NCBI RefSeq assembly: GCF_003144245.1
Contig: NW_020289993.1
Coordinates: 248,001-312,000, forward strand
Direction: 5' to 3'
Source of the DNA: Jaminaea rosea
Lineage: Eukaryota > Basidiomycota > Exobasidiomycetes > Microstromatales
DNA: 64,000 nt
Made by a program: the position numbers and the translations under genes. The notes beneath the pieces are model-generated. The model ran no database searches, was not told the DNA's origin, and saw only the letters and a program-made list of their open reading frames with translations. Shown one piece after another: positions 10,301 through 42,969 of this stretch (position 1 is its first letter; the number at the start of each line of letters is the position of its first letter).

Positions 10301-11590
10301 GGCGTAGCGGACAAGGGACGCGAGGAAGTCTGCACCTGCGCTTCGTACGGTGATTGATGATCGGCTGGCATCGGAGCGGGCGCTGAGGCTGAGCTCCATG
10401 ACATCGTTCCAGAGTTGTGGGACGAGGGCCCAGGCGGGCTCTCCCTCATCGTAGCGCGAGTAGGCGACGATGGCTCCCTCTAACGCTCGCAGGTAAGGTG
10501 GTAGGAGCTGGACGTCATTCGATGCCGGCTGAAGCGCAGAGGAGCGCAGGGCTTCGAGTGTGCGAAGTAGCGAAGATGGTGCCGATTTCTTTGCTGGGGT
10601 CTGAGCGGCAGCGACGGCGGCCATGGCGCCACTCGAGCCCGGAAGGTTGTCAGCAGCAATCTGCGTCGACGACTTTGCTGGTCGATAAAGGGCTTCAAAG
10701 ACTTCGAAGGCTGCTACAGTGAGGAAAGGGTTGTGGAGGCCGGGCAATCGCAAAAGCTCTTCGCAGAGTTGGGGGATGGCCTTGTCTGGCAACCTGGTGA
10801 CGATGGCCTTGAGGAAGCCGCAGACCCAGATGCCCACGCTTGCGCCTCCTGCCACATTTTCCTGCCTCTGCTTTGCTGCCTCTTGGGCACCTGTCGCTCG
10901 ACCCTTCTTAACATCGTACGTGGCCGCTGCCGCCGCTGCTGCCGTTGCCTTGCCCTTCTTGGACGTGACGCTGGCCGAATCTGAGACTGACGATAGCGTG
11001 GTGGAGCACCACGTCGCCGTGCGGGCGGCGTAAGGGTGCTGTTGCGATGAGAGAGCAGAGCCAATGAAGTCCTGAGCTCTCCTCCGGACCTTGGGTCTGC
11101 TGTCAGCGCAGAGAGCCAGAGAGGCATCCCAGGAAGCTCGCAGCTCTTGTTGCGTCTGGAGCAGCTGCCTATCCTCGCCGACGATGGCGATGAGTGCTTC
11201 GAGAACCGCAATAGAGGAGCGTAATAGTGCAGCCTGCTGTTCGGCCTCGTTAGAGTGAGGATTGGAGAGTACCGAGTACAGCGGCGGCAGGAGCGACGGT
11301 AGCCTGGCGCGCAGAATAGCTGCAGAGACGTGAGGAGTGACGATGGCGAGGATGTAGAAGATGGATGGGAGTAGCTTTGTTGAATTGTTGCCACGGTGGA
11401 GCATAGAGTCGAGGGCGAGGAAATACTCTGCAGGCGAGCGCTCCTTCTTGGTGCTCGTTGTAGGCTGCGACTCGTCGAGGGACTCTTCGATGGCCACGAG
11501 GAGCTGAGCGGGTGCCTTTTGATTGTCAAGCTTTGATGCCGTGAGCGATCTGAGCTTGGCCAGCTGCTCTGCCATGGTAAGCGACGCCAT
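7364..11590 (-). CDS. RRP12: Rrp12-like ribosome biogenesis HEAT-repeat protein
   Basis: Single exon, 1408 residues, close to or slightly longer than typical fungal Rrp12. The N-terminus includes the family-like segments AEYFLALDSMLHRGNNSTK and STKLLPSIFYILAIVTPHVS, followed by a long series of helical repeats typical of the NUC173 region. From about residue 1070 to the end it is Lys/Glu-rich, with nuclear-localisation-like runs (KKRKERAKRKKASGG, a poly-Gln stretch followed by RRRRRDRDDDE, and a C-terminal KKRR). In yeast, Rrp12 is a nucleolar/pre-ribosome factor needed for 40S maturation and export; the same role is expected here. The start ATG at 11588-11590 faces the NAC beta gene across a 391-bp divergent promoter, so two ribosome-linked genes share a control region. 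Confidence 0.92.
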   Translation of the reverse strand: MASLTMAEQLAKLRSLTASKLDNQKAPAQLLVAIEESLDESQPTTSTKKERSPAEYFLALDSMLHRGNNSTKLLPSIFYILAIVTPHVSAAILRARLPSLLPPLYSVLSNPHSNEAEQQAALLRSSIAVLEALIAIVGEDRQLLQTQQELRASWDASLALCADSRPKVRRRAQDFIGSALSSQQHPYAARTATWCSTTLSSVSDSASVTSKKGKATAAAAAAATYDVKKGRATGAQEAAKQRQENVAGGASVGIWVCGFLKAIVTRLPDKAIPQLCEELLRLPGLHNPFLTVAAFEVFEALYRPAKSSTQIAADNLPGSSGAMAAVAAAQTPAKKSAPSSLLRTLEALRSSALQPASNDVQLLPPYLRALEGAIVAYSRYDEGEPAWALVPQLWNDVMELSLSARSDASRSSITVRSAGADFLASLVRYAVPDEAIKTALKTKSSPLHSLVTSLDDALGRHALRFTHSRGEILGVLTALVTRLRLRVGVNSSPAATQLLIPLITTVAALRQTPKFEHRDRADAVLGAATEVCGPEAILTALPLNLLAGNGQGRAWLLPLMKGRITNTSLGHFVRDLVPLSEKLFNARTQAQQDASRGVEAKMYEALVEQLWSLFPGYCDLPTDLVTALSQPFAELLANVLATQQALRPSILRGLTLLVDRNEALSRSGASDESLRLTFGLTAADGKAALTHLIGLAPAFLSVFSHLLAQSPSSSRGYITEAIGAFLRILPASEVSATYGKVAGQLKTALTELVPQRDREVGPHAVPPLAHSMLDLLITLVPFLPAAEALALFKAATSDDLLQNDDAGVQKKTYRVLARLLEGSKGAALATSANVTSLLTTLREVTVAVAPGAKRDRLHLLSGIVPRIPLGDLHLLPSIIPEAVLATKEANQASRTLAYELLVQMGEKMQQEGGKIKRGLLLENDDKEDEQNAMDTTDVVDASLTEYLTMVSAGLAGNSPHMISATITSLSRLVYEFKEQLPRSTLEEVVSTMSVFLTSSPNREIIKSVLGFVKVSIVSLEYDVVDAALPEWVPGMLEWKQHPAHRVVFKGKVRHIFERLLRRFGYERIESLCDEENRKLVVNIKKRKERAKRKKASGGSAGHAGEDEEDDVAAGAGAPGAKAPRRDLGVDAFEEALYGSDSDVSSDDSGEEDIEQGGAAGGLAALARKAAGARQGKGQKPEQQQQQQQRRRRRDRDDDEAYLLEDDDAPMDLLDRSAGAVVHRKPAGKDAKDGGKRRAPGTEARRFDLDESTGRMLINDPEDEGSAGPAGNGASADLFGPSGAYVERETGTDGFTHSGRGGAVKFNKNNKRVRAEEREADLEAEEAIAAAEAARADVSGTSSAAAKRPKKAQPERIGASFAAKKKGAKGDVKKAGGPDPYAYVPLSAVGGKKGSKQERNVQITGKKRR

Positions 11591-15186: not shown

Positions 15187-17251
15187 ATGGCCGAGGAGAT
15201 TGGAAACAACGCCATGGAGGCTACCATGGCTTCGCCCGCCAACGGGGCGACCGACTCGCAGCAGCAGACGCCCGCTCAGGAGGCTGCTTCGAGGAGCAAG
15301 AAGGAGTGCCGAGTCTACGTCGGCAACCTCAGCTACGACGTCAAGTGGAACATTCTCAAGGACTTCATGAGGGAGGGTGCGTAGTAGTTAGCTAGTGGGG
15401 TTGGTCGCCATTTCCCTTTTTCCTTCCCTTCTTTCCATCATTCGAGGCCCACCGCCATCACCACCACAACTACGCCTTTCGAAGAACCCCCACACTCGTC
15501 CACCATCCACCTGGGGTGCATATACTCGAGACAGAGATGTCTATATCGCTGGCAATCGGTTGGGCGACGTGTGGGGCTTGGATTGGCCAGGCATTTGCGA
15601 CGTCGTGTGGCTTGGCTTGGTATCGTCGCGGGTCGTGGGTCGTGGGTCGTGGGTCGCGGAGGCTTTCATCATCGTAGTCGTCAGAGGTGCTTGGGCTGGT
15701 TGGCTGACGGATTGCGTTGTGCGTTGCATGGGTCGCTTTGGATGGCAGCTGGCAACGTCGTCTTCTCGGAGGTCCTTTCTCTCCCCAACGGCATGTCCAA
15801 GGGTTGCGGGTGAGTAGGTCGCAATAATGAGGTGGATGCCAAAGAGGACCAATCACTCACCCGCATATACCATGACCCTTCCTCATTCACAGTATCGTCG
15901 AATACGAGCGACCTGAAGAGGCACAGCGCGCCATCAAGGAGCTCAGCGACACTCCTCTGCTCGGACGACCCGTCTTCATTCGCGAGGTGAGTCATCGCAG
16001 CGCATATGACGCTCGCTCACCTGCTGCGCACCAGCTCACTTTCCTTCATCGTCCCCTGTTGCCTTCTGCAGGACCGTGAGCAGGAGGCTCGCTACGGTGT
16101 CCCCGCATCCATGGGCCGTGGTGGCTTTGGCGGCCGCGGTGGCTTCGGCGGTCCCCCTCGTGGTGGCTTCGGCGGCGGTTTCGGTGGTCGTGGCGGCTAC
16201 GGTGGTGGATACGGAGGAGGATACGGCGGGGGTTATGGTGGCGGGTACGGCGGAGGGTACGGCGGTGGCTTCAACGGCCCCCCTCCCCCTTCAATGGCTC
16301 CCCCCGGCGCCCAGCTCTACATTGGCAACCTCCCCTTCCAGGCTGGCTGGCAAGAGCTCAAGGATCTCTTCCGCACTGCTGGCAACATCGTCCGTGCTGA
16401 CATCAACATGGGCCCCGACGGAAGGCCCAAGGGATCCGGCATCGTCGTCTTTGCTACGCCCGAGGACGCTCAAAACGCCATCCAGATGTACAATGGCTTC
16501 GACTGGAACGGACGTCAGATCGAGGTTCGCGAGGTGAGTGCGAATGTCAAGTGGCGAGCAGGTCGTGGCTCAGCTTGCTCCGTTGTGCTCATCTGTCTCC
16601 TTCCCCTCTCGCTTCCACAGGACCGCTTCGCTGGAGGCTTCGGCGGAGGAGGATACGGTGGTGGCTTCGGCGGCCGTGGTGGCTTTGGTGGAGGCTACGG
16701 CCCCCCTCGTGGTGGCTTCGGTGGTCCCCGCGGTGGCTTCGGCGGTGGATTCGGTGGTCGAGGCGGCTACGGTGGTGGTATGGGTGGTGGCCCTCACGGC
16801 GGCGCTGGCGGCTACCAGCAACAGCAGCTCCCGCCTGCTGACCCCTCGATGCAGATCTTCGTCAAGAACGTGAGTGTGCAGCGCATGAGTCAAGATGAGG
16901 CTAAAGCTGACATCCTCTATTACCCACCCGCCCGCGCAGCTCCCCTGGTCTACTTCCAACGAGGATCTCGTTGAGCTCTTCCAAACCACGGGCAAGGTCG
17001 ACGAGGCCGAGATCCTCTTCGAGGGCGGTCGCTCCAAGGGTGTCGGTGTTGTTCAGTTCGCCACCGTGGAGGAGGCAGAGACGGCCATTGCCAAGTTCTC
17101 CAACTACGTCTACGGCGGTCGCGCCCTGGACATTGAGTTCAACCGCAACTGGCGTGACTTCGAGGGACTGCGCAACTCTTCTGGTGGCGCCGCTGCCACG
17201 GGTGGGGCTGCTGCACCTCACGCCGAGGGCGGGGACGCTACCATGGCCTAA
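15187..17251 (+). CDS. Gbp2/Hrb1-like RNA-binding protein with three RRMs and RGG boxes
   Basis: Six exons, 15187..15376, 15749..15809, 15893..15986, 16072..16533, 16621..16869 and 16940..17251, give 455 residues. RRM1 (about residues 41-117) has RNP2 VYVGNLSYDVKW and the Gbp2-type segment LPNGMSKGCGIVEYERPEEA. It is followed by a Gly-rich RGG/GGYGG block, RRM2 (LYIGNLPFQAGWQELKDLF), a second RGG block, and RRM3 (IFVKNLPWSTSNEDLVELF ... GRSKGVGVVQF). In yeast, Gbp2 and Hrb1 are shuttling poly(A)+ RNA-binding proteins that couple splicing quality control to export; the order of domains fits that group. The first intron is 372 nt, far longer than others in the window, and reading past its donor meets a stop at once. 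RGG blocks are likely arginine-methylation sites. Confidence 0.9.
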
Positions 17252-17525: not shown

Positions 17526-19130
17526 TCAATACTGCCACCTGGCCCCTGCCTCAGAGATGGCCGCCGCTGAAGACCTGCCAACGCGAGGAAACGCGCTGAC
17601 GTCTCGTACGCTCTCTCGATTTGCAAGCCAGGCGACGAGTCGCTCCATGCCGATACCGAAACCGCCGTGTGGCGGCATGCCGGAGGATCGTAGCGAGTCG
17701 ACGTACCATGCATTGAGGGCCGATGATGAGGACAGAGCCTCTGCTCGATCATCTCGATTGCCCTTTGCTTCCTGCTGCTTGCGCTTGAGCACAGCGATAT
17801 TATCCTCTCTCAGACTTCCTCCCACTAGCTCGCCGAGCCCCGGAACGAGGAGATCGAAACACCTGGCTATTCTGCGTCCCTCTGCATCCTCGCCCTCTCG
17901 CATATAGAAGGGCTTGAGGTGAGCGGGGTAGTCTGTGACGAAGACGGGTCCTTGAGCAACTTGCTCCGCCAAGAAGCGCTCTTGCTCTGAGGAGAGGTCA
18001 TGTCCCCAGGCCGGTGGTGGTGTCGAGGAGCCGTTGTTGCCGACGTGGTGGCGTTGGAGCGTCTCGATGGCGTCGCCGTAAGTCATGCGCGCCCATGGCT
18101 GATCGATGTAGCGCTCTAGATCGTCTAGTCTCTTGCCCTCTACCCCTGCGTACAGATACTGGGCATCTTGTCGAGCAACTTGTGCCTCTTCGTTGCCGCT
18201 CGCGATTCCCAAGGCAGCCCGAGCTCCAGCCTTGATGGATTCCTCTGCGATGACGATGACCTCTTGGAGCTCGGAGGCGGCAGAGTCTGACATTGTTGGC
18301 ATCTCAACTTCGCACATCCAAAACTCACGCAGGTGACGATTTGTGGCGCTATCCTCTGCTCTGAATGCTGGAGTGAATGTATAGACTCTGCCTAGACCGA
18401 GCATGAGTGCTTCAAGGTGAAGCTGTGAGGAGACGGTCAGGTACGTGGGCGTAGCGGCGGTGCCGGCTGATGCCATGTCCTTGTCCTTCTTTGACTTTGG
18501 CTCGACGACTTGAAATACCTCTCCTCCTCCTTCACAGTCGCTGCTGGTCATAATCGGCGGCCGTACTTGCGTGTAGCCCTTGCCATCGAGGTAGGAGGCC
18601 ATTGCTGCTTCGAGTCTGGCACGAAGGCGCAGCGTGGCAGCGAAAGAGGGAATCTGAGTGCGAAGATGGGCATTCTTTCGGGCCAAAGAGGTCGACGGCT
18701 CGAAGCTCGTTGACAAGAAGGGATGCCGCGCAGCATCGCAACCTGCTACCACGCTGCCTGAGTTGATGACGAAGTCGAGTTGTTGCCCTTTGCCTCTGCT
18801 AGCTTGCAGCTTGCCTGTGAGCCGGACTGCGGCTCCTGGCGACAAGATTTTGCCTTCTGCTTCTTTGAGTGTGACGGAATTGCGAAGGACAGCTTGGATC
18901 GTCGAGTCTCCTGCCAGTGAACCGTCCGAGAGGTTGAGGAACGACACTTTGGAATGGACGCGCACTGACCGCACCGTCGCCTGAATTGTCGCAGACACCG
19001 ACTCCTCTATTCTCTCATCAGGTCTTCCTTGCGCCAGTCGTCCACGAAGTGTCGCCGGTTGCGGTATTGATGAAGACGCTGAAGCTGATGTCCCTTGCGC
19101 TGCAGCAGCCCACCATCGCGACGGCTTCAT
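17526..19130 (-). CDS. asparaginyl-tRNA synthetase, probably mitochondrial
   Basis: Single exon of 534 residues from the ATG at 19130; the frame upstream offers only a GTG. An N-terminal OB-fold anticodon-binding domain (about residues 35-130, with VRSVRVHSKVSFLNLSDGS) is followed by the class II core. Seen in order are PPIMTSSDCEGGGEVFQV, SQLHLEALMLGLGRVYTF (the Asn/Asp-type active-site segment), motif 2 in AFRAEDSATNRHLREFWM, and motif 3 GGFGIGMERLVAWLANRES ending VSAFPR. The C-GGG-E-F pattern and overall length point to AsnRS rather than AspRS or LysRS. The short basic/Ala-Ser leader (MKPSRWWAAAAQGTSASASS) and the lack of the cytosolic-type N-terminal extension suggest the organelle enzyme that charges tRNA-Asn. 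The gene lies tail-to-tail with the Gbp2-like gene. Confidence 0.92.
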   Translation of the reverse strand: MKPSRWWAAAAQGTSASASSSIPQPATLRGRLAQGRPDERIEESVSATIQATVRSVRVHSKVSFLNLSDGSLAGDSTIQAVLRNSVTLKEAEGKILSPGAAVRLTGKLQASRGKGQQLDFVINSGSVVAGCDAARHPFLSTSFEPSTSLARKNAHLRTQIPSFAATLRLRARLEAAMASYLDGKGYTQVRPPIMTSSDCEGGGEVFQVVEPKSKKDKDMASAGTAATPTYLTVSSQLHLEALMLGLGRVYTFTPAFRAEDSATNRHLREFWMCEVEMPTMSDSAASELQEVIVIAEESIKAGARAALGIASGNEEAQVARQDAQYLYAGVEGKRLDDLERYIDQPWARMTYGDAIETLQRHHVGNNGSSTPPPAWGHDLSSEQERFLAEQVAQGPVFVTDYPAHLKPFYMREGEDAEGRRIARCFDLLVPGLGELVGGSLREDNIAVLKRKQQEAKGNRDDRAEALSSSSALNAWYVDSLRSSGMPPHGGFGIGMERLVAWLANRESVRDVSAFPRVGRSSAAAISEAGARWQY

Positions 19131-19236
19131 CACGACTTTTGTGAGAGTTGCTTTCCACCAAAATCCTCAGTCCGATCTCGACAGGCAGGCAGCAACGCCA
19201 TTCAAGAGCAGCGGCAAGGCAGCAGCTTACGTAAAC

Positions 19237-20608: not shown

Positions 20609-23600
20609 ATGTCTTCTTCCCCTGGGCGACCGCGACCGCAAAGGGCTGCGGCTACTGCTCGCAGGCCACTGGTCATCTCTGACGACGAAGGTTCTGAAGA
20701 TGATCTTGGCGGCCTTGGCAAATCGCAGACGAAACGACGTCGTGTGAGCGACGATGCCGACGACGACAGCGACTTTGCCGAGGGATCCAGCAGCAGCGAT
20801 GATGAGGATGATGACGACGACGACGCAGTAGATCACAGCGATCAAGACGACGAAACCCCTTCTCTCGCCCGTAGCGGCAGTGGCAGCTGTCAGCCTGAGG
20901 ACACCGATGCCCTCGAGACGCCTTCCAACGAGGCAGAGATGCCCCTCCTCGACCCCAAGCCATCGCCTATCGGCTTCCCACAGGTCACCATTGATCTATC
21001 CAATACACCAAAGCACAGCAATACCCTGAAGCAATCATCGCTGGCGAGTTTCTTCACCAAGCCGGGCGTCGCTTTCAGCGCCGCATCCACCTCGCGCACC
21101 CACCCCTTCTTCCAATCCACGTCCTCCCGTCGGGCAAATGAGAAGCAAAGAGACTCCGACTTTCTAGCAGACAGCGACGAAGACGATGATGCATTTGGCA
21201 AAGCGTCGAGCAGCAAAGTTAAGAAGGGGCGGGTAAGCGGCTCAGCACGAGGCGGGAAGCTCGGTGTCTCCGGTCAGAAGTGGGCGCCAGACTTTCGCCG
21301 AGGACGGTCCACCAAGCATATCCCACACTGCCCTACCGAAGCGCAGGCAGCCGCTCTCGCAAAAGAGGCCGAGCAAAAGGCAAAGGATCATCTCTGGCCT
21401 CCCATGTCCGACCTCAGCGAAATCTACGCCGACATCGTCGATCGCATGCCAGAGGCTCTCCTCAAGCCCCTGGCCCAGACGCTGGCCGGCAAAGGACGTG
21501 CTCTAAGAGTCGCTACAATGTGCAGCGGTACCGAGTCTCCTCTGCTTGCTCTCAACCTCATCTCACGTGCCGTCGAGGCAAAATGGGGCATCAAGATGGC
21601 CATTGAGCACGTCTTTTCCTGCGAGCTCGAGCCATTCAAGCAGGCCTACATAGAGCGTAACTTCTCGCCCCCTCTTCTCTTCCGCGACGTCACTGAACTT
21701 GGCAAGCCTCGCGCTCATACAGCATACGGAGCCCTGGTCGAAGTGCCGGGCGACATCGACGTACTTGTTGCCGGGACAAGCTGCGTCGACTATTCTGGTT
21801 TGAACAATGCAAAAAAGGCCATCAATGAGGGGGGCGAGTCTGGTCGCACCTTTTTCGGCATGCTCGACTGGGTCAAGCGCAACCAGCCAGCTATCGTGAT
21901 TCTCGAAAATGTCAAGTCGGCACCGTGGGAGGGAGTGGGCAAGTTCTTTGAAGAGGCCGACTACGACTCGTCCTTTTCCACTCGCTTCGACACCAAGAAC
22001 TACTACATCCCGCAGACGCGACAGCGAGGCTACTTTTTCGCGAGCAGGAACAAGAAGGGCGACTACCCTGCCAACTGGCACAATCTCGTCTCGTCTTTGC
22101 AACGTCCCGCGTCGTCGCCCATCGAGGCCTTCATGCTGCCCACGACGGACCAGCGCATTCAAGCTACGCGTGCCAAAATGGGTCACGAGGAGGCCGGCAA
22201 GAGCAGAAGCACCATCGACTGGTCCAAGTGCCAAGGTCGACACGAAGAGGCGCGCGGATTTGAGAAGCTCGGTCAGGCTCGACCATTCACTGCATGGGAG
22301 GAGGGAGGCTCCTGCGCAATGTCGCACGGAGCATGGAACGAGTTCGCTCGACCTCAGCCGGAACGAGTACTTGACCTCATGGACATCACCGTATTGCGGG
22401 ACGCCAAGCGCGGAGAAGATCCGCACTTCAAGAGTCGAGTGTGGGAGCTCAGTCAGAACGTCGACCGCAACATCGTCGCTCCTCAACCGGGTATCACGGG
22501 CTGTCTCACGCCGTCGGGTATGCCCTTTCTCACCAGCCGCGGCGGACCCGTCACTGGATTGGAGGCCCTGTCATTGCAAGGCTTGCCCATCAATGAGCTG
22601 CTCCTCACGCGCGAGAGCGATGATCAGCTTCAGAACCTCGCAGGCAACGCCATGAGCTCGACGGTAGTGGGCGTGTGCATCCTCGCGGCGCTCGTACTTG
22701 CTCGCCCCGACCTCGAAGCTGAGAGGCAAGGTCTCGACCCTAAGACGTCTGCGCGTTTGCTCCACGACATCGACGCGCCGCGCCGTCGTAAAGAGGTCGA
22801 TGTGATTGGGTCGCTTGTCGAGGAGGACTACGATCTAGTCTCGATGGAGGCTATCGACTTTAGCAAGCTTCTCCAGCAAGCGGCGTCATCGAGCCAGCTG
22901 TGCATCTGCGAGGGATCCAACGAGTGCAAGGTGGACATTTGGCGCTGCCGTCACTGCGACCAGACGGTATGCGGGACGTGCAAATCGCGGCCGTTGCACA
23001 GCTTTGCCATGGATGAGGCCGCCGCACACCGTACGTTGCCTCGTGACTTTGAGGATGTGCTCAAGAAGGCTCTGCCCATGCGTTTGGCAATGAGGGCGAG
23101 CGGGATCTCACGAGCAGCTGCAGGGGCTACTGGTCTCGGCTCAGAGGGAAAGCGCTGGCAGGAGCGCGTGGAGAAGGTGCTGAATCACGCAGAGTTCCGC
23201 TTCTCCCACCTCATACGCGGTCGCATCTGGACGGCAGAGTTCTTCTCGCTCTCTTCATCACGCATGGAGCTTGTCCTGGACCCCGTGGAGCCATTCTGGC
23301 AGATCTTTGTCGAGCCAGACAAGAGGGAGCCCGAGGGCAGCGTGCTGCGCAAGCTCCTCCTACAACCCGTAGCTCGTCAGCGTATCGATATCCAGGGGGG
23401 GCGTAGAGCAACACTTCTTGAACTCGGGCAGAAGTGGGAGCTCAACTTGCCGACACGCAATCGCGCTACAATGAACGTCGTGTGCCATGGCGAACAGATA
23501 GACTCGTGGCAGGCATCAATGGGCATTCGTGGAGAGTACGCTGGCACCAAGCGCTACTCCAAGATGACAATTGAGAAGGTGGGTGACAGCGCATCGCAAG

Positions 23601-26600
23601 CTGAGACCACTCTGTGTGGAGAATACGAGCTGCTGCCGGAGTGCGGGCAAGCCAACGCCTCGCTTCACAAGCGCAAAGGGGGCGAGCGCCCACTTTACCT
23701 TTTTATCGATGCTGCTCGATACGGCTCTTCATCCGACGACGCCTACGTGTTCTCCTCAAAGCTCGGCATGCTCAACTACCCCAAGGATCGCCCTGTACTT
23801 GCCAGCTTCAAGTCTGGATGGAAGCCACCACTTGCGCCGCGCGATCCCACCGTCGAAGACGAGGTCGAGCTCACGCCAGATGAGTTTGAGAAGCTCTCTG
23901 CGTCGTACCAACGCCAGCGAGGAGAGCACAAGGAGAAGACGCAGACGGTCGAGACGACTTTGTGCGGGCAGTGGGTCCCGTGCGCGGGCCTGATCATGGG
24001 GCCATACCACGAAGAGAAGAGCGCCACAATTGCGATCCCATCATCGCAGCTCCATCTCAATCTCGAAAAGGCAGGCTGCTCCGAAGCGCAGACGGTGCTT
24101 GCCTGCACGACTTCGCTCAGCGACCGCAGCAACGACGACAGCGGCAATGTTTGGCCTCGAGCCCGCGGAAGGTGGGTGGAGGTCGATTTGGAGCACCAAG
24201 GCAGGCAGACTTTCGAGAAGCTGTCGTGGCTCATCGAGAGGGTGCCCGAGGTGCGTTCTTGGGCGAATTGGATGCAGGCAAAGCGTACGTATACGGCCAG
24301 CTGCTGCATCGAATGTGCACCAGCTCCGCCTTCCATTCAATGGCTCAAGAAGGGCAATACGCTGCCTATCCCCATCGAGAATGAGCGCGAGGCTGGGCCT
24401 TACGAGCAAGCGATGAAGAACAGGCCATTCCCATTCCTACTTCACCTGCGCACTGACGACGACGGATGCGGTAGGCTACGTCTTGCTGTCAACCCCGCGA
24501 CGCTTATGCACCGAGCTCTCTCACGCCTGCCGCAGCGCGGCGATGCCCAACAGCCGACGCCGTCGTGGCGCCTCACTCGGGTTGATCCGACGCTAACCCC
24601 CTTCAATCTGCCCAAGTACGAGCTGCGCTCGAATCGTCACGACCCCGAGGCTGAGGATCCGCAACACTTCAAGCTCTCGCTGCGCAAGGAGCAGAAGCGC
24701 TCTCTTAATTGGATGCTGGCGCAAGAGGGCGACGTAGAGCCATTCACAGAGGAGGAAGTCAGCGAGGCGAGCTTGCCCGCGCTCGAGTGGTGTGCAGAGG
24801 GGATGGCTCGGCAGTCGCGTGTGGTGCGAGGCGGAGTGATTGCGGACGCAGTTGGCTACGGCAAGACAGCTATCTCGCTCGCACTGATCGCTAAGCAGCG
24901 GGAGCAAGGCGCCTCGCCTCCGCCCGCAAATCCTAGCCTCATACCTACCAAGGCGACGCTGGTCATTGTGCCTCCACAACTCTGCAAGCAATGGGAGAAT
25001 GAAGTGCGCAAATTTGTAGGCAGCAAGCTCTCCGTCCACGTCATCTTCAGCAAGGCCGATCTCAACAAGACGACAATCGAGCGACTACAGCGCGTAGACA
25101 TTGTCATCATGAGCGTGTCAGTCTATAAGTCGGACTCGTACTTTGACTCGCTGGCCGCATTCGCAGCTGCTAATCCTATCCCGCAACGCGAGGGTCGCTT
25201 TTTTGACTCTGCGTTGGCCAAGAGCATCTCGTGTCTGCCGGAGCGAGTCAAGGAGCTGCAACTCGACGACCGCGGCCGCACGCTGTGGCAGAGCATCAAG
25301 GAACGCAAGGGATTCGACCCCGCTCATCTCACCACTTACAAGGCCAAGAAACGTGTCGTGGGCAAGCAGTACGCGCGGGAAAAGGCCTTGGAGGGCGGCG
25401 ATGATGAGGAGGACGGTGGCGTGGAGGATGCTTGGGAGCAGATCAAGCGTGAAAAAGTCTCGGACGTCTGGGGCATCAAGACTGGCCTGAAGCGATGGAC
25501 GGACATGACTTCGCCACCGCTCGAATCGTTCTCGTGGCGTCGCGTCATCATCGACGAGTTTCACTACATTGCCGCCGAAGCTGGTCGCGTCTTTTCAGCC
25601 GTACGTTCGCTCACCGCGAGCTCGACCTGGGTGCTTTCGGGTACGCCGAAGACGGGCGACTTTGCCGACATTCGCTCGATGGCGGCGTTCCTCAATGTGC
25701 ATTTGGGTGTGGAGGATGATGCCGACTATGCGGATAGCTCTTCGAGGAGTAGGACCTCGCGTAACAAGGCACGCTCAAATGTCGAGCGATTCAGGAGCTT
25801 CGTCGAGGTGCACTCGCCAGCTTGGCATCACCGCAGGCAGCGTATCGGACAGTCATTCTTGGACCGCTTCGTCAGACAGAATGTCGCCGAGATTGACGAA
25901 ATTGCGTCAATCGAGGTGCTCAAGCCAATCCGGATGCCAGCTGCAGAGCGAGCTTGCTACCTCGAGCTTCAGCACACCATCGAAGCGCTCGACCTGCGCC
26001 ACGCTCGCAGCTTGTTCCGAGGGCCAGCTCGCGCCAAGGTGCTCGCCAGCGAGAACGACCGTGATCACCGCCTACGCACCACGCTCGGCGAAAGTTCCAG
26101 TCCTGAGGAGGCGCTGTCGCGCCAGGCTGCCCATTTCGTGCTTAGCCAGCGCGAGCGAGCGCAAAACGCCATTGAAGCATGCGACCTCATCATCGAAGAG
26201 CGCGCAAAGCAGCTAGCATTGTGCAAGGAAGAGCTCGCCGAGAAGCTAGCGGCGGCCAAGGAGCAGCATTTCCTCATGGCTCTACACTATGGCTACCGTG
26301 ATGATGCCAAACAAGCGCTCGTCTCCTTTGCAAAGAATGCCATCAGCGCCAAGTACGGCGACCGTGAAAGCAAGCAAGCTGTCGCCGAGATACTCGAAGC
26401 GGCCAATTGCCTGGAAGCGAGCCTGACGGCGAGCGTGGGTCGCAAGCAGTACGGCGCCAAAGAGCTGAAGGAGGCTCTGAAGAGGCGGGCTGCTGCTGCT
26501 GCTGTGGACGAGGTACGCAAACAGCGAGCGGCGGCAGCAAAGAGGGGCGGTGCGAAGGCCAAGGGTCGCAAGCGCGATGATAGTGAAGACGAGGAGGGCG

Positions 26601-27649
26601 AAGACAGCGATGGTCTCGACGACACTGCGCTACGTGCCGAGGAGAAGGAGGCGTCGGTGAAAGCGATCAAGGACCTCGAGGCGCAATTGTCCAAACGCGG
26701 CGGCAGCAACGACGAGGAGCGAGCGAGATTAGCCTGGCTTCAAGAGACTCATGCGCGAGCTCTCGTACACCATCTCGTCCAACTCCGCAACGAGACGGCC
26801 GCCCGTCAACGTTCTCTGCGCTACTTTGAGAACATCCGATCCATCCAGATGAGCCAGGGTCACGCCGTTTGCGGCGACTGCCCTGGGTGCAAGTCTCAGC
26901 TTACTTTCGCCAACCTCGCGCTCTCCTCTGTGTGCGGCCATCTCTTCTGCCTCGAATGCGGGCAGAGGGAGGCATGGAAGGGCAAGTGCCCCGAATCCGG
27001 CTGCAACGCCGATGCCAAGCCGACGTCGATCATCGCGGCTACGTCTTTGGGTGTAGAGAATACTAAAGTGTCCGCTTTCGGCGAGAAGATGAGCCAACTA
27101 GCCGGGCTGTTGCGCAACGAGAGGTTGATTCCAGCGGAGGACAGGATCATTCTATTCGTGCAGTTCGAGGGTCTCTTGGAGAAGACGGCGCAGGCTTTGA
27201 CATCGTACCGGATCAAGTTCACTCGGGTCAAGGGCAACGCCAAGCAGCGATCGCAAGTATTGGACGACTACCAACGCGGCACTGCCCCACGTGTACTCTT
27301 GCTGGATGTTGCCGACGAGAGCGCTGCTGGGTCCAACCTCACGATTGCGAACCACGTCATTTTCCTTTCTTCGCTGATCAGCGACGATGCGGCGACGTAT
27401 CGCTCGACGATGGAGCAAGCTCGCGGGCGATGCCTGCGATTTGGCCAAGTCAAGGAGGTGCGAGTGTGGCATCTACTAGCTCGATCGACGATTGATGAAG
27501 AGGTGTTCGAGAGGCGGGACGGGCGCGGTACCCTGGACGATGTGTTGGCGATGCGGAGCGCGAGGCAAGAGGAGTTGGGCACTCAATTGGGCGTCGAGAG
27601 CGTTGTGGAGCAGGCGGCGGCGAGCGCAAAAGGGGCGGTAAAGGTGTGA
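20609..27649 (+). CDS. DNMT5: DNMT5-family DNA cytosine methyltransferase with RING and SNF2 ATPase
   Basis: One uninterrupted frame of 2346 residues from the ATG at 20609; upstream the frame reaches only a GTG. Residues 1-280 are acidic and disordered and include a PIP box, QSSLASFF (142-149). The C5-methyltransferase domain (about 295-705) has motif I VATMCSGTESP, motif IV AGTSCVDYSGLN with catalytic Cys392, ENV (433-435), QTRQRG (469-474) and motif X LQNLAGNAMSSTVVG. A Cys-rich finger follows (about 765-792). The SNF2 ATPase has Walker A DAVGYGKT (Lys1419) and box II DEFH (1649-1652), a RING finger (from Cys2088: CGDCPGCK ... CGHLFCLECG), and helicase-C with QARGRCLRFGQ. This order matches DNMT5, known in Cryptococcus as an ATP-dependent maintenance CpG methyltransferase acting on hemimethylated DNA. 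No chromodomain is evident. All core catalytic motifs are present, so it looks active. Confidence 0.95.
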   Translation: MSSSPGRPRPQRAAATARRPLVISDDEGSEDDLGGLGKSQTKRRRVSDDADDDSDFAEGSSSSDDEDDDDDDAVDHSDQDDETPSLARSGSGSCQPEDTDALETPSNEAEMPLLDPKPSPIGFPQVTIDLSNTPKHSNTLKQSSLASFFTKPGVAFSAASTSRTHPFFQSTSSRRANEKQRDSDFLADSDEDDDAFGKASSSKVKKGRVSGSARGGKLGVSGQKWAPDFRRGRSTKHIPHCPTEAQAAALAKEAEQKAKDHLWPPMSDLSEIYADIVDRMPEALLKPLAQTLAGKGRALRVATMCSGTESPLLALNLISRAVEAKWGIKMAIEHVFSCELEPFKQAYIERNFSPPLLFRDVTELGKPRAHTAYGALVEVPGDIDVLVAGTSCVDYSGLNNAKKAINEGGESGRTFFGMLDWVKRNQPAIVILENVKSAPWEGVGKFFEEADYDSSFSTRFDTKNYYIPQTRQRGYFFASRNKKGDYPANWHNLVSSLQRPASSPIEAFMLPTTDQRIQATRAKMGHEEAGKSRSTIDWSKCQGRHEEARGFEKLGQARPFTAWEEGGSCAMSHGAWNEFARPQPERVLDLMDITVLRDAKRGEDPHFKSRVWELSQNVDRNIVAPQPGITGCLTPSGMPFLTSRGGPVTGLEALSLQGLPINELLLTRESDDQLQNLAGNAMSSTVVGVCILAALVLARPDLEAERQGLDPKTSARLLHDIDAPRRRKEVDVIGSLVEEDYDLVSMEAIDFSKLLQQAASSSQLCICEGSNECKVDIWRCRHCDQTVCGTCKSRPLHSFAMDEAAAHRTLPRDFEDVLKKALPMRLAMRASGISRAAAGATGLGSEGKRWQERVEKVLNHAEFRFSHLIRGRIWTAEFFSLSSSRMELVLDPVEPFWQIFVEPDKREPEGSVLRKLLLQPVARQRIDIQGGRRATLLELGQKWELNLPTRNRATMNVVCHGEQIDSWQASMGIRGEYAGTKRYSKMTIEKVGDSASQAETTLCGEYELLPECGQANASLHKRKGGERPLYLFIDAARYGSSSDDAYVFSSKLGMLNYPKDRPVLASFKSGWKPPLAPRDPTVEDEVELTPDEFEKLSASYQRQRGEHKEKTQTVETTLCGQWVPCAGLIMGPYHEEKSATIAIPSSQLHLNLEKAGCSEAQTVLACTTSLSDRSNDDSGNVWPRARGRWVEVDLEHQGRQTFEKLSWLIERVPEVRSWANWMQAKRTYTASCCIECAPAPPSIQWLKKGNTLPIPIENEREAGPYEQAMKNRPFPFLLHLRTDDDGCGRLRLAVNPATLMHRALSRLPQRGDAQQPTPSWRLTRVDPTLTPFNLPKYELRSNRHDPEAEDPQHFKLSLRKEQKRSLNWMLAQEGDVEPFTEEEVSEASLPALEWCAEGMARQSRVVRGGVIADAVGYGKTAISLALIAKQREQGASPPPANPSLIPTKATLVIVPPQLCKQWENEVRKFVGSKLSVHVIFSKADLNKTTIERLQRVDIVIMSVSVYKSDSYFDSLAAFAAANPIPQREGRFFDSALAKSISCLPERVKELQLDDRGRTLWQSIKERKGFDPAHLTTYKAKKRVVGKQYAREKALEGGDDEEDGGVEDAWEQIKREKVSDVWGIKTGLKRWTDMTSPPLESFSWRRVIIDEFHYIAAEAGRVFSAVRSLTASSTWVLSGTPKTGDFADIRSMAAFLNVHLGVEDDADYADSSSRSRTSRNKARSNVERFRSFVEVHSPAWHHRRQRIGQSFLDRFVRQNVAEIDEIASIEVLKPIRMPAAERACYLELQHTIEALDLRHARSLFRGPARAKVLASENDRDHRLRTTLGESSSPEEALSRQAAHFVLSQRERAQNAIEACDLIIEERAKQLALCKEELAEKLAAAKEQHFLMALHYGYRDDAKQALVSFAKNAISAKYGDRESKQAVAEILEAANCLEASLTASVGRKQYGAKELKEALKRRAAAAAVDEVRKQRAAAAKRGGAKAKGRKRDDSEDEEGEDSDGLDDTALRAEEKEASVKAIKDLEAQLSKRGGSNDEERARLAWLQETHARALVHHLVQLRNETAARQRSLRYFENIRSIQMSQGHAVCGDCPGCKSQLTFANLALSSVCGHLFCLECGQREAWKGKCPESGCNADAKPTSIIAATSLGVENTKVSAFGEKMSQLAGLLRNERLIPAEDRIILFVQFEGLLEKTAQALTSYRIKFTRVKGNAKQRSQVLDDYQRGTAPRVLLLDVADESAAGSNLTIANHVIFLSSLISDDAATYRSTMEQARGRCLRFGQVKEVRVWHLLARSTIDEEVFERRDGRGTLDDVLAMRSARQEELGTQLGVESVVEQAAASAKGAVKV

Positions 27650-28504
27650 TGGCGGAGGCAAGCGGCGAGCGTGATGAGCGTGGCGCGAGGCGGGAACACT
27701 TGTGTCAAGGACAAATGGCAATAAACTGAAAGCTTCTCTCCACTCGACATTTGCGCCTGTGTCTGATCTGCGTTGCTCTTTGACATGTCAGATGAGGACT
27801 GTGCGAAGCGAGAGAAATCAACTCAAGGCTGTCATGGGAACGACTTCGACATTGTTCGCCGCATTTGATGCACCGTCTTTCTATTGTTGATGGCTTCTAT
27901 TCCAGCCTTGGGGCCTGTCGAGCAAGTAGGGCGGTGCACTGCGACGCGTACCAGAGGAGTGGTGCACTTCGACGTGTACCAGACATTGTCGGACAAGATG
28001 TGACGCGAGATTGCGGTATCAGCTGCCATTGATTGCGGTGTGAGATGCCACTGATTGTTCGGCTATTTGCGATGGCAAATACTGGCGCCGCCGGCACAAG
28101 ACGCGCAGAAGAAACACCCACCCAATCGATTTGGCACCTCCATGTCCTCCTTAGTGACGCCATCAATACTGCGCAGCTTGCTGCCCTTGGCCAGTCAAAG
28201 AGACACAGCCTCGGGAGAAGCCATGAGAGAAAAGCAAGTGTGTGCTCTACTTCGCCACTCCCACTTCGATCATCGCGGGCGCATCGTGGGAGCATCGAAG
28301 TTGAAGGGAGAAACGGAGAGACGGCATGACGGCGTGACAGCGTGACAGCGTGACGGCATGACGACGCTTCGACGCATTGAGTAGAACGCATGACGACGAT
28401 GGCTTGACTCAATGTGAGGATTGGGGTCTCTGGAAAGAGATAAAGGGGCAACGACCACGACCTGTTCATCGTTCCCTCATCCCGCACATCATCCCCTCCT
28501 TACG
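27650..28504. other. spacer with short tandem CGTGACAG-like repeats
   Basis: This 855-bp gap follows the DNMT5 stop. At about 28320-28365 the motif CGTGACAG and close variants recur several times in tandem. A possible TATA-like element (GATAAAG) lies near 28438, about 65 bp before the next ATG. The minus-strand open frame across 27897-28487 has no recognisable content and is rejected. Confidence 0.5.
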
Positions 28505-30607
28505 ATGCGCGCCCTTTACGCCTTTGTCGTTCTGGCACTCAGCCTCAGCAGTGTCTCAGCAGCACCTCACGCTCAGAAGCGTGGCAACCATCCTCATCCA
28601 CACCCGCACCCGCACCCGCACCCGCACCCTCACCCACACCCGCATCCCCATCCTCACCCGAAGCCAGGGCCTGGGCCAACTTCTACGGTGCCGGACCCCA
28701 CTCCAGTGGCCCCAATCTCGACCGTTTACAGCACTACCTACGGCAGCGAGTCGAGCACGTACACGCTGGGTGACCCAGCTCATCCTACCGTCGTCGAGCA
28801 GATCAAAGTCTCGACCATCTCTGTGACCAAGGAGGGTACCGGCAGCACTGCAAGGACATATACGCAGGGTGGGCCCGCGACTGTGACTGTCGTCGTCGAA
28901 AATCCGGCCAAAGGCCCGGAGAAGACGCCCGTCTCTCCCTCGACTGTCACCGTCACCGGGCAGGGCCCTGTGCCTACAACTCTCACCGAAGGCACTCCCG
29001 AAAAGCCCACAGTCGTGGTGATCGAGCCTTACAAGACGGTCACCAAAACGAGAGGAGGGCCGACAGCTACCACGCTGACTGAAGGACCGTCGGAGTCTCC
29101 CACCGTTGTGGTGCAGACCAAATGGCCGACGGTCACCAAGAATGGGCCTGCAAAGACGACCACCACCGAGGGAGCTCCTGGAAAGGAGACCGTCGTAGTC
29201 GTGGAGCCTTACAAGACGCTGACCAAGACACAAGGCGGCCCGACCGCCACTACTCTTACCCAAGGCCCAGAATCCGATCGCACCGTCGTTGTCCAGACGC
29301 CCTGGCCGACGATCACGAAGAATGGACCTGCAAAGACGACGACGACCGAAGGACCTCCCGGGAAGGAAACTGTGGTAGTAGTTGAGCCGTTCAAGACTTT
29401 GACTAAGACGCAGGGCGGCCCTACCCCCACGACTCTGACCCAAGGCCCAGAGTCTGATAGGACGATTGTGGTGCAGACGCCATGGCCCACGATCACGAAA
29501 CCCGGCCCGACTGCAGGACGAATCACAACCGCACCTCCTGATAGGCCCGACGATAAGACGGTCATCGTTCAGGAGCCCTTCAAAACGATCACAAAGGGAG
29601 GGCCTTCTGCTACGACACAGACAACTGGAGACACCGTCACAGTGGTGACGCCATGGCCGACGGTGACCAAACCGGCGCCTACGGCAGGAAGGATCACTAC
29701 CGCGCCTCCTGAGAACCCCGACGACAAGACGGTCATCGTTCAAGAGCCGTACCCAACTACCACGAGGGGTGGGCCAGCTCGTACTACGTTGACCGAAGGG
29801 CCTCCGGAGAAGCCTACGGTCGTCGTGGTCGAGCCATGGCCGACGGTGACACGTCCAGCCCCTACTGCCGGAAGAATCACAACCGCACCTCCTGAATCAC
29901 CTGACAAGTCGACCGTGGTCATCCAAACCCCTTACCCGACCATCACGAAGACGTACAACGGCGATACTCCTCGCACGAGCACGACTCAAGGTCCTAGTGG
30001 ACCCACTGTTGTAGTCGAGAATCCACACTGCAAAGACGTGCAAGGCTGGCAATGGGCGTACTATGACAAGCCGTACAGCGACAAAACGCATCCTCAGTAC
30101 GATCCGTCGGACAGCTTCGCAAAGTTGAAGCCCGACGCTACTGGCACGACCGAGCGCGTATCGTTCGCCCAGCCAGATTCTGGCCCGGGCAAAGGCATCA
30201 TTTACGGCTCAACCCCGTTGAAGACGAACGGATACGCCGTGCAACTGCGAGGCTACATCAAACCTTCTGCGACTGGCAAGTACACTTTCAATGTCGAGGA
30301 CGTGGACGATGAGGTGCGTGTGTGGGTAAATGAGGGCGCCTACAAGGGCTACAACGACGGGAATCGCGACATCGAAGTTCACAGAGACGGCAACACAAAC
30401 GGCAAGGGCAGCTTCACCGCGGATCTCGAGAAGGACAAGTACTATGCGATTCGCTTCATGGTCATGAACAGGGGTGGCCCCGCCTCCCTCACTTTCCGTC
30501 CGTTCGGTCCCGATGGGAAGCCGGTGGAAATAGAATACTTCAGACAGAACGCTTGCGCTCCGGAGGACAAAGGACCCGCTTACCAGGAGTGGGGTGCAGA
30601 AGCCTGA
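28505..30607 (+). CDS. secreted repeat-rich adhesin-like protein with GLEYA/PA14-type C-terminus
   Basis: Single exon, 700 residues from the ATG at 28505. A signal peptide (MRALYAFVVLALSLSSVSA) is followed by a dibasic Kex2-type site (AQKR) and an exact (His-Pro)12 tract at residues 29-52. Residues from about 155 to 500 are Thr/Pro/Val-rich modular repeats of the type KTVTKTRGGPTATTLTEGP and VVVQTPWPTITK, likely O-mannosylated. The last roughly 190 residues (from HCKDVQGWQWAYYD) are globular and resemble GLEYA/PA14 lectin-like domains: GYAVQLRGYIKPSATGKYTF, VEDVDDEVRVWVNEGAYKGY, KYYAIRFMVMNRGGPASL. Such domains bind glycans in fungal adhesins. No C-terminal GPI-like hydrophobic tail is seen, so the protein may be secreted or wall-trapped. 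The glycan-binding role is inference from fold-like similarity. Confidence 0.8.
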   Translation: MRALYAFVVLALSLSSVSAAPHAQKRGNHPHPHPHPHPHPHPHPHPHPHPHPKPGPGPTSTVPDPTPVAPISTVYSTTYGSESSTYTLGDPAHPTVVEQIKVSTISVTKEGTGSTARTYTQGGPATVTVVVENPAKGPEKTPVSPSTVTVTGQGPVPTTLTEGTPEKPTVVVIEPYKTVTKTRGGPTATTLTEGPSESPTVVVQTKWPTVTKNGPAKTTTTEGAPGKETVVVVEPYKTLTKTQGGPTATTLTQGPESDRTVVVQTPWPTITKNGPAKTTTTEGPPGKETVVVVEPFKTLTKTQGGPTPTTLTQGPESDRTIVVQTPWPTITKPGPTAGRITTAPPDRPDDKTVIVQEPFKTITKGGPSATTQTTGDTVTVVTPWPTVTKPAPTAGRITTAPPENPDDKTVIVQEPYPTTTRGGPARTTLTEGPPEKPTVVVVEPWPTVTRPAPTAGRITTAPPESPDKSTVVIQTPYPTITKTYNGDTPRTSTTQGPSGPTVVVENPHCKDVQGWQWAYYDKPYSDKTHPQYDPSDSFAKLKPDATGTTERVSFAQPDSGPGKGIIYGSTPLKTNGYAVQLRGYIKPSATGKYTFNVEDVDDEVRVWVNEGAYKGYNDGNRDIEVHRDGNTNGKGSFTADLEKDKYYAIRFMVMNRGGPASLTFRPFGPDGKPVEIEYFRQNACAPEDKGPAYQEWGAEA

Positions 30608-36818: not shown

Positions 36819-39800
36819 ATGTACCAGCGCGGCAACAACCACAACAACCACAACGGCGGCGGCGGCGGCGGCGGTGGCGGCGCACACTCGGCCGCGTCCC
36901 CAGCCTCCGGTGGGCCATCTGCCCTCCCAGCCTTCTCTCATCCTCATTCGGGCATCCGCACGCCGCCCAATGGCCAGTCCCCTCACGTCTCACCTTATGC
37001 GACGCCCGCGCCCCTGTATGCACCTTCTCTGCCCTACTCGTACCCTACAATACCCAGCAGCATGAGCCGACAGAGCTCCGTGGGCGCAGGAGCATGGAGT
37101 CCAGCCCCTGGGGGCCAACGCGCATCTACCAGCTCAGCCGTCAAGTATGAGGGCGGAGAGGGCGATGAGGATGAGGATGAAGACGGGGAAGACGAAGACG
37201 ATGACGACGACGATGATGACGATGATGAGGACGACGACGGCGACTCGTCTGCCATGAGCCCTTCCTCTCGCAAGCGCAAAAGAGAGAGCGATGGGCGAGC
37301 TAGTGCAACACCGCACGCTGCTACGACCGTCGCCGACGCCGCATCGGCCCACAAGAAGCCCAAGCCGCCGCGAGGATCCAAGGCGTGCACACACTGTAGA
37401 AAGCTCAAGATGCGCTGCACAGGCGGTGAAAATGGACCTCCATGCGATCGCTGCCGGCATTCGGGATATCAGTGCATCTTCGAGGAGAGCAATCGAGGCA
37501 AGAAAGCCGCAGCCAACGCGGCAGCAGCGGCGCAAGCAAAGGCCGAAAAGGCAGCTCAAGCCGCACTTGTTGCAAGTAACAAGGCCAGCGCCAGCAGCAG
37601 CGGCCACACGCAAGAAAACGAAAGCCTCAGCAGCGGCTTTCCGACAAAGACAAAAGGAAAGTCCAAGCAGTCGAACCAAGACCTCGCCCGCAGTCTGGAA
37701 AAGATGGAGCAGACGCTCGAGAGCGTCCTCAAGACGATTCGCGATCCAACGCATGCCAGTCAGCTGGGTCATGCCAGCGGAATGCTCACTCGTCCCTCAT
37801 CTCCAGAGGCAAGGAGCAAAGCGAGCGACTCGCACCGCCACCACGACGGAGCCCGACCAACGAGCATCGCGCCAAGCCAACTCACAGCGCCGTCGTCATT
37901 CGCGCCTCCTCATCAACCAGTCTCTGCCCGCTACGCATCCGTCGCCTCGGCGGCAACAGCTGGCGCGCCAATCTCACCACCTGCGCCTCGTCAGCAGCAG
38001 TCTACCAGAATAGGAGCTGTTGGCAGTAGCGGCGGCGGAGCCGGAGGACGAGGCGTGCGCACGACGAGTCCACGCCTGCATTCGCTCCCTCCAGACAGCC
38101 TCAACCCTCTAGGCCTGCTCGCCGAGGCCAGCTTGGGCAATCAGCTCGGATCGGCAAGGCGCGCCAAGAGTAGCGGCGTAGAGAACGACGGAGAAGAGAC
38201 TGGCAGGGATGCGTCAGAGGCGGCGGCGGCGCCTTCGAGTCGGCAGGCTTCCAAGTCTGCTGGCCCGGCCGAGCGCGGCGCCAAAGACGGCTCTGGTGCT
38301 GCTACGACTCGCCCACGCAACGCACCCGCCCTCGGCGTTGCATCTAAGACCTACTTCCGCCCAGGACCCATGTCCATGTTGCCCCTCCGCAAAGTCATCA
38401 TCGACCGCGAGCTCCCTCCCGAGCTCCTCACTTCGGGCGTCGTGAGCGACACCGAGGTACTCGATCTCTTCAGCATCTTCTTCCACAACTGCGCTCAGCA
38501 TATCATCCTCCTCGACCCCGAGTGGCATACGCCGCAGTTCGTGTGCGGGCGGTCGCCCTTCTTGTTCACGGTGATTTTGGCCATCGCCTCACGCTACTAC
38601 GCCAGGCGGCCTGACTTGCACGCCCAATGCCTGAGGCAGGCGACGAAAGAGGCCTTCAATTGCTTGGAGCGCGGTTTCAAGTCGGTGGAAATCGTGCAAG
38701 CCTTCTTGCTGCTGACGATGTGGGGCCAGCCAGCGCGCCGCTTCGAGGAGGACAAGAGCTGGATTTTTGCCGGCATCGCATTCCGAGTGGCTACCGACTT
38801 GAACCTGCATCGCAAGAGCATCGCTACCTTGCCTGGACAGGGCAACCTCGACGATCCGGCCATGATCGAGAGGGAAAAGTGAGTAAGCGCGCAGCGTTAT
38901 GCCAGGTGACAGCTCTGACTCCTCTCTCATCGCCCACGCACCCCCCACGCACAGGGAGATACGCAACCGCGAACGCACATGGATCTTCTGCTTCGTCGTT
39001 GACCGCTCGCTCAGCAGTCAGATGGGCAAGCCGAGCGTCATCCGCGAAGACTTCATCTTGCGCAATACCCGAGCGTGGGCGCTCGGGCCGACTGCACAAC
39101 CCGCAGACATGGCTTTGAGCGCCATTGTGGGCCTGCAGCGCTTGACATCGCGACAGACTGACCTGCTCTACTCTTCAGTCACTTCGGTGACCGGCTTGAA
39201 TCAGGACCTCGACTTCTCAAGCATGATTCGTGAGTAGCTCTTGCGGAGGATCTCTGGACCGAGCGAGCATGCTGATCGCTCCTCGCCTCTCGCGCCCAGG
39301 CATCTTCTCTGAGCAACTCGAGGAGTGGCGTCACTTCTGGACGATGCGTGGCCTCGTCATCGGTGACTGCCGCAACCGTCAGCCTCCCATTCCAGCCAAC
39401 GACGGCACGCTCAGCCCTCGCGAGATTGAGCTGCGTCAGCTCTTCTCTCTGGCTAACCGCGAAACGCCCCCGCCAGACGACGGCGACCATACGATTCGAA
39501 CGCTATACTACCTCATCCAGCAAGCCCCTCTGCGCTATCACTACGCAGCATTGACACTGCACTCATTCGGCCTACAATTCGGTAATCAAATTGACGACCG
39601 AGGCGTGCAGTTCATACGCTGTTACGACTCCGCGAAAGGTAAGAGAGAAGAGAGCACGTGCAGCTTTCACGCAGCAAGTTCGAAGCTGACTTGCGACTTG
39701 ACCCGCGCCCCCAGGCATTTTCTTTGCTGCTCGCGACGGCATGCGCCCCATCCTACGCTACGCCTCCGACACGCAGATCCTCATCATCGCCTTCTCCCTC

Positions 39801-42789: not shown

Positions 42790-42969
42790 TATGGCGGCCT
42801 GCAAAGGGAATGGATGGATGAATGAATGGTGGGCAACCACACATGCAGCATACATTCATTCACTCTCTCGCGCCGTCCGCTCGCTCAGTCCGCCTTTCCG
42901 TCGTGAGTCTCTCACAACCACTAAGCGGGTCTGACTATCCTAGTCAACACTCAACACAGTATCCTCGCC

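Follow-up and report, generated by a model that had tools for sequence, protein, structure and literature searches.

The window examined here (the whole stretch of 64,000 nucleotides that was analysed) carries a DNMT5 gene, whose product is a C5-methyltransferase fused to a C-terminal SNF2 ATPase with the Walker A Lys present. An earlier sequence-only reading had described the gene as intact, with Cys392 and Lys1419 as key residues, and this was confirmed: the frame is unbroken, and script numbering puts the GTSC motif at 389-392 and VGYGKT at 1415-1420. The features are as follows (window positions; the neighbours are Pfam matches).

20609..27649, plus strand: DNMT5 gene, single uninterrupted frame of 2346 codons, ATG to stop
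20609..21505, plus strand: N-terminal region, aa 1-299, low-complexity and acidic, probably disordered judging from composition
21032..21055, plus strand: candidate PCNA-docking PIP box QSSLASFF, aa 142-149 (consensus match, conservation and shuffles)
21506..22693, plus strand: C5-cytosine methyltransferase domain, about aa 300-695 (boundaries judged by eye)
21782..21784, plus strand: codon of catalytic Cys392 (GTSC)
22901..22999, plus strand: first Cys-rich finger, about aa 765-797, aligning with a Cys-rich stretch of 7r76
24692..25708, plus strand: SNF2 ATPase N-lobe, about aa 1362-1700 (Pfam and motif residues)
24863-24865, plus strand: Walker A Lys1419 codon (VGYGKT)
26879..26992, plus strand: RING-type finger, aa 2091-2128, lying between the two SNF2 lobes (Pfam score under the cut-off)
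27125..27445, plus strand: Helicase C lobe, aa 2173-2279, with QARGRCLRFGQ
7364-11590: RRP12
16006-16974: RRM protein
17526-19133: class II tRNA synthetase
28421-30607: GLEYA/PA14 adhesin-like protein
36819-38882: Zn2Cys6 regulator
41023-42855: WD40 protein

The top match of the protein (100% identity over the searched part) is BDZ90DRAFT_276289 of Jaminaea rosea, and the J. rosea DNMT5 is already public under that name as a hypothetical protein. The species belongs to the Ustilaginomycotina (Exobasidiomycetes, Microstromatales), as the sequence-only reading had supposed in calling the host a smut relative. The public model is 2428 aa long and contains all 2346 residues plus 82 extra N-terminal ones, which are drawn from more than one upstream frame. 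With GTG and TTG starts permitted, the ORF listing extends the frame from 20228; the start at 20609 is backed by the start of the Parajaminaea DNMT5 (alignment by eye). The gene is single-copy in the assembly (16.6 Mb, 21 contigs), where eight further matches all fall on the SNF2 part (20.8-37.9 bits). Eight neighbouring frames in the window were scanned with Pfam, two of them giving no match, and the gene neighbourhood looks ordinary. Taken by itself, the DNMT5 gene is unexceptional for its family.

Three domains of the protein score above the Pfam cut-off: SNF2 (3.9e-23), C-5 methylase (1.6e-13) and Helicase_C (1.1e-6). The RING match is weak (E=0.0041), and its position and cysteines fit. 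The remaining methyltransferase motifs are CSGT at 305, ILENV at 431, QTRQR at 469 and GNAM at 679, and those of the ATPase are DEFH at 1649-1652 and QARGRCLRFGQ at 2270-2280 (script numbering). The Pfam scan gave no match in this protein to a chromodomain (PF00385) or to the RFD that marks DNMT1-type enzymes. The N-terminal PIP box and the first Cys-rich finger had gone unmentioned in the sequence-only reading. The best solved structure is 7r76_A (1379 bits, aligned over query residues 256-1947 and 2050-2303), deposited as "DNA repair protein Rad8". We take this chain, along with 7r77, 7r78 and 7t02, to be Cryptococcus neoformans Dnmt5; Cryptococcus rows are 84-85% identical to it, which fits that identity. 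Structures of C. neoformans DNMT5 are mentioned in the excerpted text of a review (PMC13297926). By analogy with the family, ATP coupling and specificity for hemimethylated CpG are expected of the J. rosea enzyme.

Orthologues, other silencing genes and the methylation footprint

A homologue search with the J. rosea protein was evaluated for the best 120 of 1120 matches. Its top 27 rows consist of Ustilaginomycotina, 18 of them named, and of unnamed rows close to these, and the matches listed include the true smuts Sporisorium scitamineum, Ustilago tritici, U. trichophora and Melanopsichium; such a search shows presences only, and loss frequency cannot be measured from its counts. The sequence-only reading had noted that loss of DNMT5 is reported for model smuts. 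That part stands for Ustilago maydis and Malassezia globosa, which the excerpted text of PMC5073141 lists with Saccharomyces and Wallemia sebi as lacking DNA methyltransferases; as a statement about smuts it is too broad, because the losses are those of single species and other true smuts keep DNMT5. In the excerpt available of PMC7862722, 5mC of U. maydis is tabulated at 2.26% by HPLC. Since orthologues occur in named smuts and the reported losses concern single species, retention of DNMT5 in J. rosea is unremarkable.

For the methyltransferase domain, the phylogeny that the sequence-only reading had proposed places the protein among fungal DNMT5. The tree was built from 88 such DNMT5 domains, using all usable rows from outside the Agaricomycetes and one in five of the Agaricomycetes (24/118). 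J. rosea and 25 Ustilaginomycotina rows, those of the 27 with at least 80 N-terminal residues, lie together on the same side of a branch supported at 100/100. The tree holds DNMT5 rows without an outgroup, so that separation from other classes rests on the 7r76 match and the homologue search, and its long branches, e.g., Tremellomycetes with rusts, may be joined falsely.

Three further loci of the J. rosea genome were relevant to methylation and silencing.

Contig C2, about 1050630-1053124, minus strand: second C5 methyltransferase, 786 aa, three exons (PF00145)
Contig C10, about 471362-473232, minus strand: SET protein whose Cys-rich pre-SET-like stretch is interrupted by an intron (by eye)
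Contig C3, 162000-171000: Ty3-like element, reverse transcriptase and chromodomain matches in one 1754-aa frame

A PF00145 search of the genome found DNMT5 and one other gene. Joined across introns of 69 and 65 bases, the latter encodes 786 aa with a strong methylase domain and a weak BAH match (E=0.17), and its best solved relatives are DNMT1 catalytic domains. Judged by its sequence, this second methyltransferase is DNMT1-class. Assignment to DNMT2 was considered and dropped on the sequence reading and the structure matches. The enzyme is possibly a DnmtX-like de novo methyltransferase. Like DnmtX of Kwoniella (as described in the part of PMC11185503 available), it has a DNMT catalytic domain in a shorter protein, but its BAH match is weak and the likeness is one of layout only. 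The term "maintenance-only", which the sequence-only reading had applied, describes Cryptococcus; it cannot be assumed for J. rosea because the genome encodes this second, DNMT1-class enzyme.

The SET protein on contig C10 is a candidate Clr4/SUV39-type H3K9 methyltransferase. A Pre-SET search had come back empty, with its controls also silent, and the idea that J. rosea lacks H3K9 methylation was rejected because of this SET gene with its split pre-SET-like stretch. Genes for a chromo plus chromo-shadow protein, an Argonaute and an RdRP are also present in J. rosea. A SAD_SRA search of the genome gave no match; its controls were silent too, and introns can hide the domain.

CpG observed/expected ratios were taken from 159 reference windows of 3 kb (overlapping or sampled), with a mean of 0.99 and a range of 0.80-1.19; the z values below are rough because these windows overlap. 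At least five reverse-transcriptase (RVT_1) matches occur in the 16.6 Mb genome. At the Ty3-like locus, of which no second copy was found in the genome, TpG/CpA reaches 1.36 against a reference maximum of 1.25 (z +5.4), while CpG is 0.81 and inside the reference range (minimum 0.80; z -2.5). At the reverse-transcriptase locus on contig C1 the deviations run the other way, CpG rising to 1.24 and TpG/CpA falling to 0.88. None of the remaining three loci has a CpG deficit of the Ty3-like size, and parts of those on C2 and C10 have low TpG/CpA (z -5.0 and -3.2). There is no clear methylation footprint; the CpG statistics neither support nor exclude the methylation that the sequence-only reading had predicted.

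These data bear on the reading that the gene is intact but weakly used, J. rosea having little or no CpG methylation and keeping the enzyme for another role, such as SNF2/RING activity in repair. The absence of CpG depletion in the 159 windows, the small number of targets (the five or more reverse-transcriptase matches) and the name DNA repair protein Rad8 borne by several homologues among the matches listed all speak for it. We nevertheless consider it very unlikely: the catalytic motifs are intact, the searched portion of the methyltransferase shares 82-86% identity with three named Microstromatales relatives among the matches listed, and TpG/CpA of the Ty3-like locus lies beyond all 159 windows, though its CpG does not. 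A working CpG-maintenance enzyme is the reading that we prefer.

A conserved PIP box before the methyltransferase domain

The PIP box is a PCNA-interacting motif, and QSSLASFF fits its classical consensus. It lies outside all Pfam matches of the J. rosea DNMT5. Matches were scored in the strict form Q-x-x-[ILMV]-x-x-[FY]-[FY], upstream of the CSGT motif. For J. rosea alone, shuffling the 304 N-terminal residues 20,000 times produced the strict motif in 35 cases, and QSSLASFF is the sole strict match in 16,912 aa of window frames (stop-to-stop, at least 250 aa). Among the first 120 homologues, 82 carry a strict PIP box before the methyltransferase (0.10 expected from shuffles). Other lineages were added by searches with the 7r76 chain and the Ascobolus protein P0060, taking the best 120 matches of each, to give 205 proteins; six without the CSGT anchor were removed and 199 scored. 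The strict motif was found in 125 of them, with about 0.24 expected (shuffles, summed over groups).

By group, it is present in 103/131 Agaricomycetes, 10/27 Ustilaginomycotina, 5/7 chytrids, 4/4 Ascomycota and 3/4 unnamed rows near Ascobolus, and in 0/21 Tremellomycetes and 0/5 rusts. Groups were assigned from listed names, all otherwise unassigned rows being counted as Agaricomycetes, and one of the unnamed rows placed near Ascobolus (P0185) sits among Agaricomycetes in the tree. Agaricomycetes weigh heavily in these counts, and related rows are not independent. The 125 matches fall in 33,558 N-terminal residues, whereas the rest of the same proteins, 404,528 residues, has 2. As N-terminal controls, the reversed motif gave 0 matches and four altered spacings gave 10, 0, 2 and 0. 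It was concluded that the PIP box is conserved beyond chance across DNMT5 orthologues.

The motif core is Q-K-S-I/L-T-S-F-F, with Gln fixed by definition and Lys/Arg making up 32% of the upstream 8 and 26% of the downstream 10 residues. It starts at about residue 13 in many Agaricomycetes, at 21-22 in several Ustilago-type smuts and at 142 in J. rosea, a shift in position that leaves the core unchanged. With the count limited to the 182 proteins whose N-terminus has 80 residues or more, 124 have the strict form and 139 a form with relaxed end (2.4 expected for the relaxed), as in QVTLDSMF, QATLSDMF and QATLFDMF of Violaceomyces, Pseudozyma flocculosa and Thecaphora. Because the relaxed form is frequent elsewhere in DNMT5 proteins (241 in 404,528 aa), it is the strict one that carries the argument.

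In the same 182 proteins the strict motif is absent from 20/20 Tremellomycetes, 5/5 rusts, 15/25 Ustilaginomycotina, 16/118 Agaricomycetes and 1/6 chytrids, and the relaxed form is absent as well from 19, 4, 12, 6 and 1 of these, respectively. The 28 Agaricomycete rows without the strict motif divide into 12 whose N-terminus up to the anchor is shorter than 80 residues, 10 that have the relaxed form (chiefly Qxx[IL]xxF ending in Leu, Ile, Met or Val) and 6 that have neither. Some rows without the motif look truncated, and the public Coprinopsis cinerea model P0034 is short and has none. Two Ustilaginomycotina rows have the same peptide minus the Gln (KGRITSFF and HGRITSFF). Ceraceosorus (two rows) and the near relative Sympodiomycopsis (P0007) have long N-termini and no PIP box. 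Several Tremellomycetes, e.g., Kwoniella, show a look-alike without Gln (ALGIKGFF), and Kockovaella, a member of the Tremellomycetes without PF00385, has QGDLRNWF. The listed annotation gives PF00385 for 19/21 Tremellomycetes rows (the chromodomain of Kwoniella P0121 has E=2e-7). Chromodomain and PIP box are not strictly exclusive: some chytrids combine them, the strict PIP box being present in three of the four chytrid rows that have PF00385.

Two other kinds of motif were observed. A VDLS/T or IDLS stretch, similar to a SUMO-interacting motif, stands upstream of the PIP box or PIP-like peptide in the Ustilaginomycotina DNMT5 N-termini P0002, P0005, P0007, P0021 and P0026. The tight form of this motif was found in 3/25 Ustilaginomycotina rows (0.18 expected), 0/20 Tremellomycetes and 0/137 others; the loose form was found in 15/25 Ustilaginomycotina, a count inflated by a conserved stretch adjoining the methyltransferase. 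The J. rosea DNMT5 fits neither form. Two chromodomain proteins with a chromo-shadow-like stretch (by eye) have PIP-like peptides, KQGTLSRFL and RNGRLDKYF, between the two; to our knowledge, a PCNA motif would be unusual in HP1-type proteins.

Recruitment of DNMT5 and comparison with known systems

We think it likely that the J. rosea gene encodes a working CpG-maintenance DNMT5 whose N-terminal PIP box anchors it to PCNA in the wake of the replication fork. PCNA is encoded in the genome, and judging from the motif, docking on PCNA is the most likely function of the PIP box. The box, lying outside the folded domains, would hold DNMT5 at PCNA behind the fork; the SNF2 motor would test freshly made hemimethylated CpGs, and the methyltransferase domain would then restore the CpG mark. 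New marks could come from the second, DNMT1-class enzyme. Because the J. rosea DNMT5 has no chromodomain, PCNA docking, possibly with other partners, would replace the recruitment through a chromodomain (H3K9me) known from Cryptococcus.

PIP-like motifs are promiscuous, and such peptides can also bind Mlh1 or Rev1-type partners. The enzyme might therefore be a standard DNMT5 recruited without PCNA, its peptide serving a mismatch-repair or translesion partner while heterochromatin factors guide methylation; the candidate H3K9 methyltransferase, the chromo plus chromo-shadow protein, the Argonaute and the RdRP would be available for this. We hold such recruitment to be unlikely, since J. rosea DNMT5 has no chromodomain to read H3K9me and the 125 strict matches show the residues of classical PIP boxes, with Phe at position 7 in 122/125 and at position 8 in 125/125.

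Tethering to PCNA differs from the published picture. The available text of the 2026 review (PMC13297926) states that DNMT5 works independently of the replication apparatus and that how it locates hemimethylated CpGs is only partly resolved. The conserved PIP motif argues, at the level of sequence, against replication-independent DNMT5 in many fungi, and it suggests how enzymes of this type could find newly copied DNA. According to the excerpted text of PMC8091789, the N-terminal chromo-type domain that the Cryptococcus enzyme has is missing from Verticillium Dnmt5, which contributes little. No PIP box in DNMT5 is described in the literature searched, some of it represented by excerpts; the original Cryptococcus papers lie outside that scope and may hold an earlier mention. 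The word PCNA is absent from the main text of the DNMT5 papers PMC9998398 and PMC8091789. The family itself is known and the PIP box in DNMT5 is the new point.

A wider proposal, to which we give even chances, is that the PIP box is ancestral in fungal DNMT5, that most fungal DNMT5 are PCNA clients at or just behind the fork, and that the motif was lost or decayed in the chromodomain-bearing lineage of the solved DNMT5. If so, DNMT5 would have been described as replication-independent because the solved enzyme comes from a lineage without the motif, and the chromodomain-bearing lineage used as the DNMT5 model may be atypical. PCNA or nascent chromatin could, in that case, also be a target of the fused Rad8-like RING-SNF2 part. 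The SUMO-interacting-like VDLS/T stretch, as a lead only, would allow reading of SUMO-PCNA.

Compared with the solved enzyme, presumably Cryptococcus neoformans Dnmt5, the J. rosea protein has the same order of methyltransferase, Cys-rich finger and SNF2 parts and shares the motif residues, the 1379-bit match covering most of the length. The Cryptococcus enzyme has a chromodomain at chain residues 29-97, whereas J. rosea DNMT5 has none and carries a PIP box; residues 1-28 and 98-153 of the 7r76 chain lie outside this comparison and may contain a PIP motif. The Agaricomycete DNMT5 proteins ("Rad8" class, e.g., Trametes and Marasmius) have the domain order of J. rosea and the frequent strict PIP box (103/131), with no PF00385 listed. 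Their N-terminus is often short (about 100 aa) with the motif near 13, whereas that of J. rosea is longer with the motif at 142. DNMT1 of animals, plants and fungi carries a PIP box. It belongs to a different methyltransferase class from DNMT5, which has an ATPase and no RFD match in Pfam. The two would be alike in outline, if our reading is right, in that maintenance methylation is tied to PCNA through a PIP box. The conserved motif thus suggests that DNMT1 and DNMT5, two different maintenance classes, share PCNA tethering.
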